A stretch of DNA of 32,724 nt from an uncultured Ruminococcus sp. (GTDB taxonomy: Bacteria; Bacillota; Clostridia; Oscillospirales; Ruminococcaceae). The notes beneath the pieces were generated by a model. The model was not told the origin of the DNA. It did no database searches and worked only from the letters and a program-made list of their open reading frames with translations. How positions within the stretch are numbered: position 1 is the stretch's first letter; each line of letters begins with the position of its first letter. A program made the position numbers and the translations under genes. Of the stretch, positions 1,077 to 25,322 are shown piece by piece. The stretch spans positions 1-32,724 of the forward strand of contig CANPYF010000005.1 of NCBI GenBank assembly GCA_947587925.1, read 5' to 3'.

Positions 1077-1127
1077 CAAAAAAACTGTCCGTATCCGAAG
1101 ATGACCTCGGTACGGACAGCTTTATTT
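1077..1127. terminator. Intrinsic terminator between convergent spoVT and the cohesin-like gene
   Basis: CTGTCCGTA...TACGGACAG stem (1085-1119) followed by tttatttt and preceded by an A-tract; may act bidirectionally. Confidence 0.75.
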
Positions 1128-2218
1128 TACGAAAAAATATTTTTATTTTTAGACTTATTTTTTATCAGGAAAAAGACGAATACCGCCGCAAGCAGTATGA
1201 CCGCCATGAGCGCATAAATGCGCGTTCTGAAACTATCGCCGCTGTCCTTCTTATCAGCTTTATCGCTTGACGATAAAGCCTTGCCGCTTGATGAAGTTTG
1301 AGTAACTGCGGCTGCCTGCTGTGCGCCGCTGTCCTGCGAGCTCTGCTCCAAAATCGACGTGTCGGTATCCGTACCGCCGACAGGCTGAGTTTCCTGCGGC
1401 TGCGTACTTTCGTCCGCGCTGTCGTCAGGTACTGACGAGGGTTCGCGGTAAACGTCAATGGTGTACACATTTGAGAGCGTGCCGTCAGCGGACGTGACCG
1501 TTATCATTATTTCATTGTGACCGTCAGTCAGATATGTCCTTCCCTCATACCATATCGAATCGGTCTCGCTCTGCGTTACCCCTTCGGGTTCAAAATATGT
1601 TACGTCCGCCCCGACCGTGACCGTGTAGTCGTATATGCCGGGAGAAAACGCGGGTCTCAATTCGCCGTAAGGGATAGTGAGGGAGGAAAGCTGCGCTTTG
1701 CTTGCCTGCGGGACAGCGTATGAGCTGTCGGTCGGGTCGTCCGAGTCTGCCGCAGTCACGTTCACCTCCGCGCTTGCCGAAAGCGAGCCGCCAAGGCTTA
1801 TGCCGTCCATGGACATGATAGAACCGTTCGCAAGCGTTATGCTGCTGCTGCCCTGCCTGAGCGCCTTAAAGGTAAGCTCTATCTCCATTTTATCCGTATC
1901 GCTGCCGGGGAAGCCTTGGAGATTTATCAGTCCGCCGCCGCCGCTTGCAAAATCGCTTGCGATAAACTCAATATCTTCCTCGCTGTATGAAAGCTGTGCG
2001 CGTACAGTGCCTATGCTGCCGTCCGCGTTAAATGACGCGGTAACGGAAAATTCATCACCGACCGAGATCTGCTCAGCGGCATCAAGAGCGCAGCCTGTGT
2101 CGGCATAAACGGCGGCAGGCGCAAATATCCGCAGCAGGGCGGCAAAACATATTGCGGCGGCAAAAAACCTTGCCGCGGCAATCATCGGCAGCTTGTTTGT
2201 TATGACTTTTTTTAACAT
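1127..2218 (-). CDS. Secreted, membrane-anchored protein with cohesin-like domain and cadherin-like beta-sandwich domain
   Basis: Signal peptide; ISVGDEFSVTASFNADGSIGTVRAQLSYSEEDIEFI... resembles a cohesin fold; LSSLTIPYGELRPAFSPGIYDYTVTV resembles cadherin-like beta-sandwich; Ser/Gln-rich linker then C-terminal TM helix and KNKSKNK tail. Confidence 0.7.
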   Translation of the reverse strand: MLKKVITNKLPMIAAARFFAAAICFAALLRIFAPAAVYADTGCALDAAEQISVGDEFSVTASFNADGSIGTVRAQLSYSEEDIEFIASDFASGGGGLINLQGFPGSDTDKMEIELTFKALRQGSSSITLANGSIMSMDGISLGGSLSASAEVNVTAADSDDPTDSSYAVPQASKAQLSSLTIPYGELRPAFSPGIYDYTVTVGADVTYFEPEGVTQSETDSIWYEGRTYLTDGHNEIMITVTSADGTLSNVYTIDVYREPSSVPDDSADESTQPQETQPVGGTDTDTSILEQSSQDSGAQQAAAVTQTSSSGKALSSSDKADKKDSGDSFRTRIYALMAVILLAAVFVFFLIKNKSKNKNIFS

Positions 2219-2375
2219 TGTCTTTTTATCCTTTCACCTATTAGAGGTTAGAACGCCGCACTATTACAAGTAATAGCGCTTCGCTTTTAAGAAGTAAGAG
2301 TCTGAACTTCGTTCAGACGATTAGAGGTCTGAACAAAGTTCAGACTTGAAATATTAGTCCGATTTGCGGACTAAT
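2219..2375 (-). repeat. Leader hairpin array, copy 1 (5' leader of cohesin-like gene)
   Basis: Tandem short-loop inverted repeats: 2353-2375, 2327-2345 (GTCTGAAC-3nt-GTTCAGAC), 2300-2318 (same stem), 2258-2279 (GCGCTATTAC-TT-GTAATAGTGC read on minus). Confidence 0.85.
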
Positions 2376-2470
2376 TTTTCTTGCCTTCGGATCTCTTGCT
2401 TGAGAAAATTAATTTTGTAAAAAATTATTTCCGTGTTTAGCTAGCGCTTTATCGCTTTGTTGTCCAGTAT

Positions 2471-2499
2471 ATTATAATATAATTTTGTCCCTAAGTCAA
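2471..2499 (-). promoter_or_regulatory. Sigma-A-type promoter for the cohesin-like gene
   Basis: On the minus strand TTGACT (2494-2499) - 17 nt - TATAAT (2471-2476). Confidence 0.75.
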
Positions 2500-2602
2500 T
2501 ATAATTGACCGTTTTGTAACCTGTTGTTATGTTTATTTTGTGAAAAATATACCGCTTTGGCGGTCTTGATATGGTAAAAATGCCGAAAATTCCGGAGGGG
2601 TA

Positions 2603-2631
2603 TTGACAGAATTTAATTGGGGTGTTATAAT
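2603..2631 (+). promoter_or_regulatory. Sigma-A-type promoter of the GntR-ABC operon
   Basis: TTGACA (2603-2608) - 17 nt - TATAAT (2626-2631): perfect consensus. Confidence 0.85.
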
Positions 2632-2634
2632 ACA

Positions 2635-2659
2635 AGTGTACTGTGACAGATAGTACACC
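2635..2659 (+). promoter_or_regulatory. Probable YtrA/GntR operator
   Basis: AGTGTA-13N-TACACC immediately downstream of the -10; resembles the YtrA consensus AGTGTA-13N-TACACT recalled from Bacillus literature; larger inverted repeat GTGTACT/AGTACAC. Confidence 0.75.
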
Positions 2660-2736
2660 TAATACATATAGAACAACGGAACGGAAACAACAAACACGCC
2701 GCGTAAGACGCAGGCAGGGGGTAAAGGGGCAAATAA

Positions 2737-2860
2737 TGCGCCGCATAGGCGCAGTCTGGACGAAGTTCAGACATCTACAGTCTGAGCCGCAGGCTCAGAC
2801 CACTTACCTCTTAATAGCAAGCGCTATTACTTGTAATAGTGCGGCGTTCTTACTTCTAAG
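2737..2860 (+). repeat. Leader hairpin array, copy 2 (5' leader of GntR-ABC operon)
   Basis: Hairpins 2737-2753 (TGCGCC-GCATA-GGCGCA), 2754-2772 (GTCTGGAC-GAA-GTTCAGAC), 2780-2800 (GTCTGAGCC-GCA-GGCTCAGAC), 2821-2842 (GCGCTATTAC-TT-GTAATAGTGC). Confidence 0.85.
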
Positions 2861-2880
2861 AGAGGAGGGCGATCAAACTG

Positions 2881-3258
2881 TTGATAAGGATAGACGTGAC
2901 CGGCAGAATGCCGATATATGAACAGATATGCAGCAGCATATGCGCGGATATATCCAAGGGTCTGCTGAAAGAAAATGATAAGCTGCCGGGGGCGCGGACG
3001 CTTGCAAAGGAACTCGGACTGAATCCCAACACGGTGGCAAAGGCATACGCGCGGCTCGAACATGACGGTATAATCTATTCGGTCGCGGGACGCGGCTGCT
3101 TTGTGTCCTCAAAGGCGCACAGGGCGGAATCGGCGCTGACAAAAGATTTTGAAAACAGCGTCCGCGAAGCCCTGACAGCGGGGGTAAGCGAACAAAGACT
3201 TATTGAGATCGTCAGAGAATTGGCAGATGAAATGAGCGATAACAAAGGAGGGGCGTAA
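2881..3258 (+). CDS. GntR family transcriptional regulator, YtrA subfamily (TTG start)
   Basis: MIRIDVTGRMPIYEQICSSICADISKGLLKENDKLPGARTLAKELGLNPNTVAKAYARLEHDGIIYSVAGRGCFV: classic GntR wHTH; short C-terminus typical of YtrA type; GGAGG upstream. Confidence 0.92.
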   Translation: MIRIDVTGRMPIYEQICSSICADISKGLLKENDKLPGARTLAKELGLNPNTVAKAYARLEHDGIIYSVAGRGCFVSSKAHRAESALTKDFENSVREALTAGVSEQRLIEIVRELADEMSDNKGGA

Positions 3259-9210: not shown

Positions 9211-9960
9211 ATGAAACGCTTATGCTGTCTGCTGACCGCGGCATTGTGTGCCTGCACGCTTTTTAGCTGCTCGGCAAAGGAAGATAAGACATCTCTCGCG
9301 CTCGATGTTTCAAAAAAACTTGACGCGGGCGTATATCAGATAGACATGATAATAAAAGAGGATAACGCCGAACAAATGCCTTGTGTCATCAAGGCAAACG
9401 GCAGTGACGGGACTATCTGCATGGACGAGGGCGGCATATACACGGAAATTTATACCGTTGACCTTAAAACCTATGTGCTTTTCCCCGAGGTGGAATGTTA
9501 TCAGCTCACGGCTGACGAGGGCGCGTTCGGCAACGCGCTGTTCAAGATAACCGAGGGCGACAAGGAGGTATCCTCAAAGACCGAGGACGGCAAGATCACG
9601 GAGGAATACACCTCGCAGGGCGGCAGCTACACCTTTGTTTTTGACAGCGAGGACAAGTCGCTCGAAAGTTTTTCGTCTGACGCGGACGGAAGGCATATCG
9701 ACATAACGGTCAATTCGCTGACATTTAATGATGAAAAAATAACGCTGCCCGACATAAGCGGCTGGGCGGATATATCGGGCAGCGCGTCGGTGGACGAAGT
9801 TACGGCTATGAAATTTTCTCTTTATACCCAAGGCATAACCGCCGATATGTTAAGCGGTGCGGGCTATACGATAGAAGAATTTGTAAAGCTGCCTTATGAT
9901 GAACAGCAGTCGGTCATAGCGCAGATTTTAAGCGGCGCTTCACAAAGCAAAGCGGACTAA
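9211..9960 (+). CDS. Hypothetical lipoprotein
   Basis: MKRLCCLLTAALCACTLFSCSAKEDK: lipoprotein signal peptide with LFSC lipobox; Shine-Dalgarno aaagggg. Confidence 0.8.
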   Translation: MKRLCCLLTAALCACTLFSCSAKEDKTSLALDVSKKLDAGVYQIDMIIKEDNAEQMPCVIKANGSDGTICMDEGGIYTEIYTVDLKTYVLFPEVECYQLTADEGAFGNALFKITEGDKEVSSKTEDGKITEEYTSQGGSYTFVFDSEDKSLESFSSDADGRHIDITVNSLTFNDEKITLPDISGWADISGSASVDEVTAMKFSLYTQGITADMLSGAGYTIEEFVKLPYDEQQSVIAQILSGASQSKAD

Positions 9961-9968
9961 TATTTCAC

Positions 9969-10055
9969 GTCTGAACGAAGTTCAGACCCTGAACCAAAGT
10001 TCAGACCTCTAACCTCTTACATCTTGAGAGCGAAGCGTTCTAATTTCTAAAAGGG
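9969..10055 (+). repeat. Leader hairpin array, copy 3 (recQ leader; terminal hairpin missing)
   Basis: GTCTGAAC-GAA-GTTCAGAC (9969-9987), CTGAAC-CAAA-GTTCAG (9989-10004), then linker ctctaacctcttacatcttgagagcgaagcgttctaatttctaa matching copies 1, 2 and 4 except for the missing CTATTAC-TT-GTAATAG hairpin. Confidence 0.8.
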
Positions 10056-10070
10056 AAAGCAGGAAAATTT

Positions 10071-11891
10071 TTGGACGAGCTTAATGATATTTTAAGACGA
10101 TATTTCGGGCACAGCGATTTTCGCAGCGGTCAGCGGGAGATAATCGAGCATATACTTGACGGCAGGGACGTTCTGAGCGTAATGCCGACGGGCGCGGGAA
10201 AATCCGTATGCTACCAGATACCCGCGCTGATGACCGAGGGGATAACGCTGGTCATCTCGCCGCTCATCTCGCTTATGTCCGACCAAGTCAATTCGCTGAT
10301 ACAAAACGGCATAAGCGCAGCTTATATAAACAGCACGCTGACGCCCGCGCAGTACGAAACGGCGTTGAGCCGTGCGGCTGAGGGAAAATACAAGCTGATA
10401 TATGCCGCCCCCGAACGGCTGACCGCGCCGTCATTTATCAGATTCGCACGCAGTGCGGACATAAAGCTGATAGCGGTGGACGAAGCGCACTGCGTTTCGC
10501 AGTGGGGGCAGGATTTTCGCCCGTCTTATCTGAATATCGCCGAATTTGCGAACACTCTGCCCTCGCGCCCGATAACAGCGGCGTTCACCGCAACGGCTAC
10601 GCAAGCCGTAAGGCAGGACATTATAAAAATGCTGCGGCTGAAAGACCCCTTTTGCGTTACCACGGGTTTTGACAGAAAAAATCTTTATTTTGCCGTTTTA
10701 CAGCCTGACGGCAAACTCGCCGAGGTAAAGCGGCTGACAGAGGAAGCCGGCGGCGCGGCGGGGATAATATACTGCAATACGCGCAAAAATGTGGAACTCG
10801 TCAGCGAATATCTCTGCTCGGTCGGCATACCCTGCACGCGCTATCACGCGGGACTGAGCGATACGGAGAGAAGAAAAAATCAGGAGGATTTTCTGTACGA
10901 CCGTGTAAGGGTCATTGCGGCGACAAATGCCTTCGGCATGGGGATAGACAAACCTGACGTTGCGTTCGTTATACATTTTAATATGCCCAAAGACCTTGAA
11001 AGCTACTATCAGGAAGCGGGCAGAGCGGGGCGTGACGGCTCGGAGGCGGTGTGTACACTGTTATTTTCAAGGCAGGACATACGCACCAACAAATTTCTGA
11101 TAGAAAATTCAAATGATGAACCGAGCGACCCTGCGGCTGCCGCCGCTCTGCGCCAACGGGAGTTAAAACGGCTTTCGGTAATGGTCGGCTACTGCACCAC
11201 GACAGGCTGCCTGCGGCAGTACATACTGGATTATTTCGGTGAAAGCGGCTCGCAAAGCTGTACCAAATGTTCAAACTGTGCGGCGGGCTTTTCGGAGGAA
11301 GATGTAACTGTCGAGGCGCAGAAGATACTCTCCTGCGTTTTCAGACTGCACCAACGCGGTCTGAGCATGGGTACACGGACGGTCGCGCAGATACTGCGCG
11401 GGTCGGCAGCCAAGCGGATAAAGCAGTTCAAACTTGACGAGCTTTCGACATACGGCATAATGAAGGACGCGGACATGATAAGGATACGCACGATAACTCA
11501 GGCTCTGCTTGACGGGGGGTATCTCGCGCAGGGGCAGTACGAAACGGTAGTGCTGACCGCCAAAGCCAAGGAGATACTGTTCAACGGGCAGCGTTTCACG
11601 GTGCGTTTCAAGGGCAAGGCGGACACAGCGGCAAAGCGGAGCTTTACGCCCTGCGGCGAGGACGAAGAATTATTTGCCAAACTTCGCGAACTGCGAAGTT
11701 CATTTGCACGCAAAGCGGGTGTACCCGCTTACATAATTTTCGGAGACGCGACACTGCATGATATGTGTGCCAAGCAGCCGCGCGACCGCGAGGAATTTCT
11801 CGCGGTATCGGGAGTCGGAAGGAAGAAGGCTGACAGGTACGGGGAGGAGTTTACGAAGGTCATTCGGGAGCATATTGAGGGGAAAACATAA
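10071..11891 (+). CDS. recQ: ATP-dependent DNA helicase RecQ (TTG start)
   Basis: FGHSDFRSGQREIIEHILDGRDVLSVMPTGAGKSVCYQIPAL, DEAHCVSQWGQDFRPSY, QEAGRAGRDG, zinc-binding Cys cluster YCTTTGCLRQYILDYFGES...CTKCSNC, C-terminal HRDC domain. Confidence 0.96.
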   Translation: MDELNDILRRYFGHSDFRSGQREIIEHILDGRDVLSVMPTGAGKSVCYQIPALMTEGITLVISPLISLMSDQVNSLIQNGISAAYINSTLTPAQYETALSRAAEGKYKLIYAAPERLTAPSFIRFARSADIKLIAVDEAHCVSQWGQDFRPSYLNIAEFANTLPSRPITAAFTATATQAVRQDIIKMLRLKDPFCVTTGFDRKNLYFAVLQPDGKLAEVKRLTEEAGGAAGIIYCNTRKNVELVSEYLCSVGIPCTRYHAGLSDTERRKNQEDFLYDRVRVIAATNAFGMGIDKPDVAFVIHFNMPKDLESYYQEAGRAGRDGSEAVCTLLFSRQDIRTNKFLIENSNDEPSDPAAAAALRQRELKRLSVMVGYCTTTGCLRQYILDYFGESGSQSCTKCSNCAAGFSEEDVTVEAQKILSCVFRLHQRGLSMGTRTVAQILRGSAAKRIKQFKLDELSTYGIMKDADMIRIRTITQALLDGGYLAQGQYETVVLTAKAKEILFNGQRFTVRFKGKADTAAKRSFTPCGEDEELFAKLRELRSSFARKAGVPAYIIFGDATLHDMCAKQPRDREEFLAVSGVGRKKADRYGEEFTKVIREHIEGKT

Positions 11892-11921
11892 GAATGAAAA
11901 GGTAGAATATCTGCCAAAATA

Positions 11922-12083
11922 AATTTCATCTATCTTGCAAGGGGTATCATTGCCCCCCTCCCACGGGATGAGGACGGAAAAATCGACTGCGTCGATATTT
12001 TCTGGGGTGGGCAAGCCCCTCCTTGAGGAGGGGTTTGGGGTAGAGTTTTAAATCGTCGCGTCAGCGACCACCTTTTTCAACCA
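11922..12083. repeat. 3'-end mosaic repeat, copy 2
   Basis: catctatcttgcaaggggtatcattgccccc, then aagcccctccttgaggaggggtttgggg, then a hairpin ending in cctttttcaac. Confidence 0.65.
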
Positions 12084-12674: not shown

Positions 12675-12818
12675 GCGCCGTAGGCGCCACCCGTCTGAGC
12701 CGTAGGCTCAGACCTCTAACCTCTTACATCTTAAAAGCCGGTGCTATTACTTGTAATAGTGCCGGCGTTCTAACTTCCGGAAATCAAGAATTGATTTCCA
12801 AAATCAAGAATTGATTTC
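12675..12818 (+). repeat. Leader hairpin array, copy 4 (asnB leader)
   Basis: GCGCC-GTA-GGCGC (12675-12687), GTCTGAGCC-GTA-GGCTCAGAC (12693-12713), 14-bp stem GCCGGTGCTATTAC-TT-GTAATAGTGCCGGC (12737-12766), GGAAATCAA-GAA-TTGATTTCC (12779-12799) and a repeat of that unit (12801-12817). Confidence 0.85.
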
Positions 12819-12871
12819 CGATGAACACCGCCGCGGCGTTTGTCATATATTGTTAGCGAGGTGATCATTTT

Positions 12872-14725
12872 ATGTGCGCGATTGCAGGTCTTATAGGTTT
12901 TGACGGAGCGCTTGCCAAAGCGCTGAAAAAGGATAATGACGCGGCGGATAAACTCACTGCCGCACTTAAAAGGCGCGGTCCTGACGATGACGGAGTTTAT
13001 AATGACGATAACGCCTTGCTCGTACATACGCGGCTTGCGGTAATTGACCCGCAAAACGGGGCTCAGCCGATGATCTTTAAGGATAACGAGCGTACCCTTG
13101 CGCTGGTCTATAACGGCGAACTTTATAACACAGCCGAAGTACGCGCCGAACTGGAAAGGGCAGGATATACCTTTAAAACCAATACCGATACGGAAGCTGT
13201 GCTTCTCGCCTTTGCTCAATGGGGCGAACGCTGCGTTGACCATTTTAACGGTATATTTGCATTCGCTGTCTGGGATAATAAACAGCGCAGGCTGTTCGCC
13301 GCCCGTGACCGCATAGGCGTAAAACCGTTTTTCTATACCGTCACGGACGGTGTTTTTTACTTTTCATCGGAGATAAAAGGACTGCTTGCCCTCAGCGCAG
13401 TACCCGCCGTGCTGACCGCCGAAGGCATTAAGGAGATAATGCTGCTCGGTCCTGCACGAAGCTGCGGCTGCGGTATACTTCAAGGCATAGAGGAACTTAA
13501 ACCCGCCGAATGTGCATGGGTGACCGACAGCGGAGTTAAAAAGCATTTTTATTGGGATATTGCCGACGGCGCGCAGCAGCCGTTCACCGAAAGCTTTGAG
13601 GAGGTAAAAGAACACGTCGGCAGCCTTGTGCGTGACGCAATAACAAGGCAGACCGTTTCAGATGTGCCGCTGTGTACGTTTTTATCGGGCGGACTGGATT
13701 CAAGCCTTATCTCCTCGGTCACCGCCGAGCGGTTCAAGCGCGAGGGCAGGCGGCTGCATACCTTTTCGGTGGAATACCGCGACAATGCAAAGTATTTCAA
13801 AGCGGGAAAATTTCAGCCGAACAGTGACGAAGCCTATGTGGACATAATGGCGGAGTATCTCGGCAGCGTTCATCACAAAGTAGTGATAGATACCCCCGAA
13901 CTGGTCGAAGCGCTTTTTACGTCAACGGAAGCACGCGATCTTCCGGGAATGGCGGACGTTGACAGCTCCATGCTGCTGCTTTGCAAAGCTATCCGCGAAG
14001 AGTTTACCGTTGCGCTGTCGGGAGAATGTGCTGATGAGATATTCGGCGGATACCCATGGTACCGCGACAAGGACATACGAATGACCGACGGATTCCCATG
14101 GTCGCAGTCAACGGCGTACCGCGCCGGATTTGTAAAAAAAGATTTTTTATCGGGCAAAAAGGAAGCGGAGGAATATGTATACGCAAAATATCTCGACACG
14201 ATAAGCCGTGTAAGGGAGAGCGGCTTGCCGCCGCTTGAAAAGCGAATGAGAGAGATGATGCGGCTGAACATGGAATGGTTTATGCAGACGCTGCTTGACA
14301 GGAAAGACAGAATGTCTATGTACTTCGGGCTGGAAGTGCGCGTACCGTTCTGCGACCACCGCATTGTGGAATATCTCTACCGCGTTCCGTGGGAGTACAA
14401 GGATTATCTCGGCAGAGAAAAGGGACTTTTGCGCGAAGCGTCAACGGGTCTGCTGCCCGACGGGGTACTCTGGCGCAAAAAATCGCCCTATCCCAAAACG
14501 CACAATCCGTCCTATGAAAAAGCGGTGCGCGAACGCCTTCGCGAGGAGCTTACACAGACAAACTGCCCTGTTCTGGATATTCTTGAAAAAAGCGAGATCG
14601 AGAAACTAATGTACAGCGGTCAGCACGTTCAGTGGTACGGTCAGCTTATGAACGACCCGCAGACCATGGCATACATTTTGCAGATAAACCACTGGCTGAA
14701 AATAAACAACGTTTCAATAAAATAA
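12872..14725 (+). CDS. asnB: Asparagine synthase (glutamine-hydrolysing)
   Basis: MCAIAGLIGFDG (catalytic Cys2), RRGPDDDGVY, YNGELYN, LSGGLDSSLISS PP-loop, SGECADEIFGGYPWY. Confidence 0.95.
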   Translation: MCAIAGLIGFDGALAKALKKDNDAADKLTAALKRRGPDDDGVYNDDNALLVHTRLAVIDPQNGAQPMIFKDNERTLALVYNGELYNTAEVRAELERAGYTFKTNTDTEAVLLAFAQWGERCVDHFNGIFAFAVWDNKQRRLFAARDRIGVKPFFYTVTDGVFYFSSEIKGLLALSAVPAVLTAEGIKEIMLLGPARSCGCGILQGIEELKPAECAWVTDSGVKKHFYWDIADGAQQPFTESFEEVKEHVGSLVRDAITRQTVSDVPLCTFLSGGLDSSLISSVTAERFKREGRRLHTFSVEYRDNAKYFKAGKFQPNSDEAYVDIMAEYLGSVHHKVVIDTPELVEALFTSTEARDLPGMADVDSSMLLLCKAIREEFTVALSGECADEIFGGYPWYRDKDIRMTDGFPWSQSTAYRAGFVKKDFLSGKKEAEEYVYAKYLDTISRVRESGLPPLEKRMREMMRLNMEWFMQTLLDRKDRMSMYFGLEVRVPFCDHRIVEYLYRVPWEYKDYLGREKGLLREASTGLLPDGVLWRKKSPYPKTHNPSYEKAVRERLREELTQTNCPVLDILEKSEIEKLMYSGQHVQWYGQLMNDPQTMAYILQINHWLKINNVSIK

Positions 14726-19124: not shown

Positions 19125-19320
19125 AATAAGGAGCGCCCCTGCGGGGCGGGATTTTGACACTCCCCAAACCCCTCTGAGAGGGGCTTGCCTACACCCCCAT
19201 CCCCCCTCTCCCGTGGGAGAGGGGGGCAAGTGCATCTCTCCAAGTTTGATAGATAGGAAAATTAGAGCATCTGCAAATTAAGTCTTATCCATCTTGCAAA
19301 GGTGATGTATGCCCCCATAT
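19125..19320. repeat. 3'-end mosaic repeat, copy 3
   Basis: ggagcgcccctgcggggcgg, ctccccaaacccctctgagaggggctt, ccaagtttgatagataggaaaattagagcatctgcaaattaagtcttatccatcttgcaaaggtgatgtatgccccc. Confidence 0.75.
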
Positions 19321-19346
19321 TTTTTCATATCCCCCGAATTTTTATC

Positions 19347-19375
19347 TTGAATTATCCTCCCAAATATGTTATAAT
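19347..19375 (+). promoter_or_regulatory. Promoter of the small ORF/DUF4132 unit
   Basis: TTGAAT (19347-19352) - 17 nt - TATAAT (19370-19375). Confidence 0.7.
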
Positions 19376-25129: not shown

Positions 25130-25322
25130 ATAGGAAAAAGTAGTGCATATTCAAATAAACAATAAGCGGCATATCTGCAAATTAAGTCTTATCCTTCTTG
25201 CAAGGGTGATGTATGCCCCCTTCCCTTGAGGGAAGGGGGGTTGGGGGGTTAGGAGAAGCCCCTCGGAGAGGGGTTTGGGGAGAGTTAAGATCCGCCCCGC
25301 AGGGGCGCTCCTTTTTCAACAA
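25120..25322. repeat. 3'-end mosaic repeat, copy 4 (overlaps the end of the DUF4132 CDS)
   Basis: gatagataggaaaaag...gcatatctgcaaattaagtcttatccttcttgcaagggtgatgtatgccccc, then aagcccctcggagaggggtttggggag and ccgccccgcaggggcgctcctttttcaac (reverse complement of copy 3 blocks). Confidence 0.75.

Follow-up and report, generated by a model that had tools for sequence, protein, structure and literature searches.

Bacterial MITEs are short, gene-free elements with terminal inverted repeats and target duplications, and they reach dozens of intergenic copies (PMC10969869). One of them, QMITE2 of Coxiella burnetii, measures 150-190 bp, has variable direct repeats of 7-11 nt and a GTAG REP palindrome inside, and many of its copies overlap the 3' ends of genes by a few bases (PMC5896051). 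REP sequences, among them the CGTC- and GTAG-tagged palindromes, are short high-copy intergenic hairpins with variable loops, single or clustered, and are defined by an unpaired tag beside a stem of 8-9 bp (CGTC) or 5-13 bp (GTAG), the GTAG kind being associated also with a tyrosine (RAYT) transposase (PMC3733652). In marine Beggiatoaceae, TAACTGA heptamers form intergenic direct repeats, some of them just before start codons (PMC4679880).

We analysed a stretch of 32,724 nucleotides from an uncultured Ruminococcus sp. (assembly GCA_947587925.1, contig CANPYF010000005.1; hereafter the window), in which four hairpin arrays precede four genes. We are confident that these arrays belong to a family of non-autonomous transposable elements (MITEs), of which they are mostly truncated copies. 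The element spans ~180-280 bp without any gene and resembles the bacterial MITEs in its terminal inverted repeats, target duplications and dozens of intergenic copies, and it is further like QMITE2 in its direct repeats, internal palindromes and overlaps with gene 3' ends. Unlike QMITE2, it carries two other kinds of palindrome in variable number, and the likeness drawn here is one of description. Its hairpins also recall the REPs but differ in that GTC lies within the stem, the loops are mostly 3 nt and most copies sit inside a MITE. An assignment of the GTCTGA hairpins to the CGTC REPs was rejected, since GTC pairs with GAC in the stem and the flanking bases vary. The heptamers are of the TCTTACC/TCTAACT type and, in contrast to those of Beggiatoaceae, are coupled to hairpins and transposon ends, without a demonstrated start-codon preference. 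Among the papers available to our literature search, none described a Ruminococcus MITE, and the family reported here, in which palindromes are nested in a MITE of Ruminococcus-type gut bacteria, is apparently undescribed. Of note are the nesting of palindromes inside a MITE and the use of one terminal repeat by unrelated MITEs.

The four arrays in the window

An earlier note on this DNA had reported four hairpin arrays with paired stems, each sense to the adjacent gene, and all of this is present in the window sequence. It had also proposed a common ordered plan. The order holds in the four arrays, but the 22-nt terminal hairpin occurs in only three of them, the recQ copy having GCGAAGCG (10030-10037) at this place. 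The TT loop ascribed to the terminal hairpin would be possible in RNA only as a CUUG tetraloop. The matches given below are to R1, a covariance model of the 69-nt right-hand module.

The first copy (2241-2435, minus strand; R1 match 2241-2310, 90.8 bits) runs from the left end ACACGGAAATAATTTTTT (from 2435) through an AT-rich module, two GTCTGA hairpins (GTCTGAACTTTGTTCAGAC at 2327-2345 and GTCTGAACGAAGTTCAGAC at 2300-2318), a linker and the terminal hairpin GCGCTATTACTTGTAATAGTGC (2258-2279) to GGCGTTCTAACCTCTAA, all on the minus strand; the right transposon end is absent. The copy begins farther upstream than the earlier plan had it, with a transposon end near 2435. A sigma-A-type promoter, TTGACT-17-TATAAT, matching 11/12 consensus bases, is found upstream of it (2471-2499, minus strand). 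The gene that follows (1127-2218, minus strand) had been called cohesin-like, which is not confirmed, its sole domain match being the Cadherin-like beta-sandwich PF12733.

The second copy (2738-2859, plus strand; R1 match 2791-2859, 91.2 bits) consists of a GCGCC..GGCGC hairpin (2738-2752), GTCTGGACGAAGTTCAGAC (2754-2772), GTCTGAGCCGCAGGCTCAGAC (2780-2800), the linker, the terminal hairpin (2821-2842) and GGCGTTCTTACTTCTAA (2843-2859), and neither transposon end is present. Upstream of it lies a sigma-A-type promoter with a 12/12 match (TTGACA-17-TATAAT, 2603-2631, plus strand), and downstream the gene for a GntR regulator (2881-3258, plus strand), followed by ABC transporter genes.

Before the RecQ helicase gene (10071-11891, plus strand), the third copy (9947-10050, plus strand; R1 match 10004-10050, 41.1 bits) shows GCAAAGCGGACTAATATTTCAC, then GTCTGAACGAAGTTCAGAC (9969-9987), a hairpin with a CAAA loop (9988-10006) and the core with GCGAAGCG replacing the terminal hairpin. 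At 9940-9968 this element provides the final codons and the stop of an open reading frame at 9211-9960; many of the antisense copies elsewhere likewise overlap a gene's stop codon or end at most 31 nt from one.

The fourth copy (12675-12820, plus strand; R1 match 12711-12780, 81.7 bits) precedes the asparagine synthase gene asnB (12872-14725, plus strand). It begins with GCGCCGTAGGCGC (12675-12687) and GTCTGAGCCGTAGGCTCAGAC (12693-12713), continues with the core and a terminal hairpin of 14 bp (12737-12766), and closes with the right end GGAAATCAAGAATTGATTTCC (12779-12799), which is partly repeated once more (12800-12820). The plan had been thought to end directly at the start region; the asnB start lies 91 nt beyond the module, and the partial right transposon end, in these two tandem pieces (12779-12820), stands between them.

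As the window copies have one transposon end or none and no scorable target duplication, their membership in the family rests on the common module and the partial ends. The window also holds three to four copies of a second interspersed repeat of ~80 nt (ATCTGCAAATTAAGTCTTATCC.TCTTGCAAGGGTGATGTATGCCCCC), at 312-392, 19269-19349 and 25173-25253, with a partial copy at 11915-11962; inverted repeats of GGAGCGCCCCTGCGGGGCG lie near two of them.

Transposon ends, target duplications and distribution

Intact copies are bounded by the inverted repeats CAYGGAAATCAATTTT, and the longest copies, when aligned, start with CACGGAAATCAATTTTTAAAA and finish with AAAATTGATTTCCGTG. The MAG Lapin-026 bin116 (G041) contains the terminal repeat 204 times, against 0 for the control, and its complete elements of ~183 bp have the same right-hand module in simpler form. 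The right half of this simple element contains a stretch of TCTTACC-type heptamers and a mini-hairpin, for example GCGAAGCG. Of the 36 complete G041 elements, 25 have direct repeats at their flanks, 8-10 bp and mostly 9 bp long, and target duplications of 8-10 bp were seen at 3/10 complete elements of the window's own genome, compared with 8/2256 when left and right flanks were mispaired as a control. The flanking duplications at complete elements are marks of transposition. The earlier note had also considered a palindromic repeat family domesticated in 5' UTRs. The repeat family is the right part of this reading, and more precisely it is a MITE bearing terminal inverted repeats and target duplications of 8-10 bp.

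The array is not confined to four leaders. Searching the 1.95-Mb assembly with R1 at E<=0.01 returned 59 copies, of which ~35 have the terminal hairpin and 24 lack it, and a strict sequence pattern recovered 16 exact copies in the window's genome. Among 40 relatives, no R1 match was found outside the sister species G002. A scan for the exact pattern across 85,488 species, each represented by one genome, returned four MAGs, namely Lapin-026 bin116 (many copies), Lapin-002 bin99, Lapin-013 bin35 and one Clostridia MAG. The three Lapin MAGs carry the database label uncultured Ruminococcus, and their name suggests rabbit samples as the origin. Rfam searches at gathering and relaxed thresholds gave nothing credible for the arrays.

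The element would have been spread by a transposase that works in trans on its terminal repeats, and intergenic copies would survive because no gene is broken. In searches for DDE_Tnp_1 and Transposase_mut no transposase with these ends was identified. DDE_Tnp_1 had few matches in G042, none with these ends, and was rejected as the autonomous partner; pairs of terminal repeats 1.3-2.5 kb apart in G041 were rejected as an autonomous element, as they enclose ordinary genes. A UPF0236 search gave no match, but its controls were likewise unmatched, hence absence is not established. Three of the four exact copies of the transposon end in G003 lie near contig edges (L232-L234), where a reading frame ending ...ESKKAISNIMLDCLVDFDELLHIVY-stop abuts the repeat. 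This fits, as a lead only, an autonomous element that is repeated and was broken up in assembly, and the frame is possibly the C-terminus of the autonomous transposase. The 25-residue coding end had no informative match among plasmids and phages.

The same ends are also found on other elements. G041 contains a second element type with an unrelated interior, and G009 and G010 (L235-L251) contain other MITE families that combine unrelated GTAGGGGCGCACC interiors with the same ends, CACGGAAATCAATTTT; in some, the 9-bp flanks match. In G042 (L138, G042:C17:43800-45800, 139-1848) two same-ended MITEs stand on either side of a 358-residue hydrolase-like reading frame, and a single exact 10-bp duplication, TCCAAACACG, flanks the pair on the outside; on its layout this looks like MITE-mediated composite transposition of a gene. 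One terminal repeat on unrelated elements in several related genomes suggests that one transposase moves several MITE families.

Hairpins and stem pairing

The paired stems had been read as a hint of selection on RNA structure, and the arrays as a possible new cis-regulatory RNA or protein-binding leader acting on unrelated genes via its conserved structure. Two properties of the hairpins agree with this proposal. For the first array, folding is far stronger than in shuffled sequence (z = -9.1), and the GTCTGA hairpins occur in paired AAC/GTT and AGC/GCT versions, pairing being kept through A-T/G-C swaps. Strong folding would be expected of inverted-repeat DNA in any case. Against the proposal, the terminal hairpin has no pair changed on both sides, and 98.4% of its cells are paired versus 98.1% when shuffled. 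Mismatched GTCTGA stems number 0/11 in copies before a promoter and 0/17 in other sense copies, and since the stems are equally paired in copies before a promoter, selection on RNA is not needed to explain them. Compensatory swaps are seen in the GTCTGA hairpins whether or not the copy is predicted to be transcribed, and none in the terminal hairpin. Palindromes can be perfected by quasipalindrome correction, a well-established route of mutation during replication, so paired stems alone do not show RNA selection. Mismatches are confined to antisense copies (3/14 vs 0/28 sense), a weak hint against the MITE account on which we do not build.

Most GTCTGA hairpins are located at one site of the MITE, after CTTGTCTA. 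They number 70 in the window's genome, 44 in G002 and 1 in G041, and their near absence from G041 despite its many elements shows an expansion in the lineage of the window's genome. In this lineage the right half gained between one and four hairpins of the form GTCTGARC..GYTCAGAC as well as the terminal hairpin of 22 nt, the latter probably arising where a core unit like GCGTTCTTACTTCTAATAGCG had been duplicated. Copies L063, L065 and L066 have GCGTTCTTACTTCTAAAAGCG-like duplicates at the terminal-hairpin site, which suggests a duplication of the core unit followed by palindrome improvement. The stems would then stay paired by recent common descent, together with correction at the DNA level where palindromes are imperfect. 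Within one genome, a series leads from GCGAAGCG over imperfect duplicates to a perfect 10-bp hairpin; it may show palindrome growth inside a mobile element, and palindromes growing in this way may mimic conserved RNA structure.

It is also possible, if rather unlikely, that the GTCTGA hairpin is a mobile unit of its own, a very small REP-like palindrome that is nested in the MITE. The single hairpin in G041 despite ~200 MITE ends would fit this idea, as would the tandem occurrence of hairpins, in both orientations, and the eight hairpins listed for the window's genome that lie >1 kb from any R1 match. However, the concentration at one MITE site argues against it, no hairpin-specific empty site or transposase was found, the GTC inside the stem departs from the CGTC-tag definition (PMC3733652), and local duplication with palindrome correction would explain the hairpins too. 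Two further loci, G000:C3:3876-3935 and G000:C39:7154-7213, have paired CTGAGC..GCTCAG hairpins at the same 45-bp spacing, possibly a separate composite repeat.

Orientation, promoters and empty sites

Gene positions were taken from a simple codon-model gene caller run on sequence stretches around the copies, which placed 0/59 copies inside genes. Forty of the 59 copies are sense to the downstream gene. Frequent antisense or 3' copies had been named in advance as an observation against a regulatory leader, and this is largely what we found, with 19/59 facing a gene's 3' end. The sense share of 40/59, although in the direction that a leader would predict, does not significantly exceed the 56% that random insertion would give when gaps between genes are weighted by length (p = 0.088; background of 20 contigs without strong module matches), and tandem gaps alone gave a sense:antisense ratio of 20:12 (p = 0.22). 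Four sense copies in one window, a further point for a leader, have a chance probability of ~0.1 at 56% sense. The leader pattern of this window is a chance-compatible sample of the MITE family.

Between element and gene, 16 of the 40 sense copies have a promoter with at least 10 of 12 consensus bases (five perfect), which places the element upstream of the transcript and outside the leader; a looser scan passed 20 sense copies, where shuffles predict ~5. The cadherin-like-gene and gntR-operon copies have strong promoters upstream, which favours a leader at these two places: both are probably transcribed and, as judged from sequence, probably lie in 5' UTRs. There the copy would probably be transcribed along with the gene as a structured 5' UTR, and side effects on expression may follow.

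Another reading is that co-option has turned a few MITE copies into structured or protein-binding 5' UTRs, namely those transcribed near a start codon. In its favour, the distance from element to start codon is 13-22 nt for eight sense copies, two window copies have a strong promoter on one side and a gene on the other, the asnB copy is kept in G000 and G002, mismatched GTCTGA stems occur in antisense copies only, and heptamer repeats near start codons have been proposed to be regulatory elsewhere (PMC4679880). Nevertheless, 13/19 antisense copies lie within 31 nt of a gene's stop codon, so nearness to a gene is not special to starts, and the mismatch difference comes down to three hairpins. 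We consider co-option unlikely. That the hairpins are a second self-amplifying palindrome in the MITE, expanded in the window's genome and G002 and not in G041, with the array co-opted as a 5' leader at a few genes, seems to us quite improbable.

Relatives bear on the dedicated leader as well. Seven intergenic regions have both flanking genes syntenic in G002, and six of these are without the element, including a convergent gap and a region before a gene with a CIRCE-like operator, TTAGCACTC..GAGTGCTAA. Orthologous asnB leaders of eight same-genus genomes lack the module. With orientation, promoter position, empty sites and the terminal stem without covariation all against it, and with no Rfam match, a dedicated RNA leader was rejected; the data do not support a new leader of the cis-regulatory RNA or protein-binding kind, and we hold it to be very improbable. 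A striking repeated leader is explained by the MITE family without a new RNA switch, and it is terminal repeats, target duplications, empty sites and promoter position that settle such cases.

The exception among the asnB leaders is that of G002, in which a relative of the element is present in decayed form. An older shared insertion, a parallel insertion or retention would each be compatible with this, and retention would count against the MITE account. The G041 asnB gene (L154) has a long CTCTTAC/CTTCTTAC heptamer array before position 315, with no clear MITE. Just before the start codon, most same-genus asnB leaders and that of the window share a short GCGAGGTGATT-type motif, possibly a conserved asnB control site unrelated to the MITE. 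The motif (L146-L152, L156, window 12840-12871) often faces a AATCACCTCGC copy as a palindrome.
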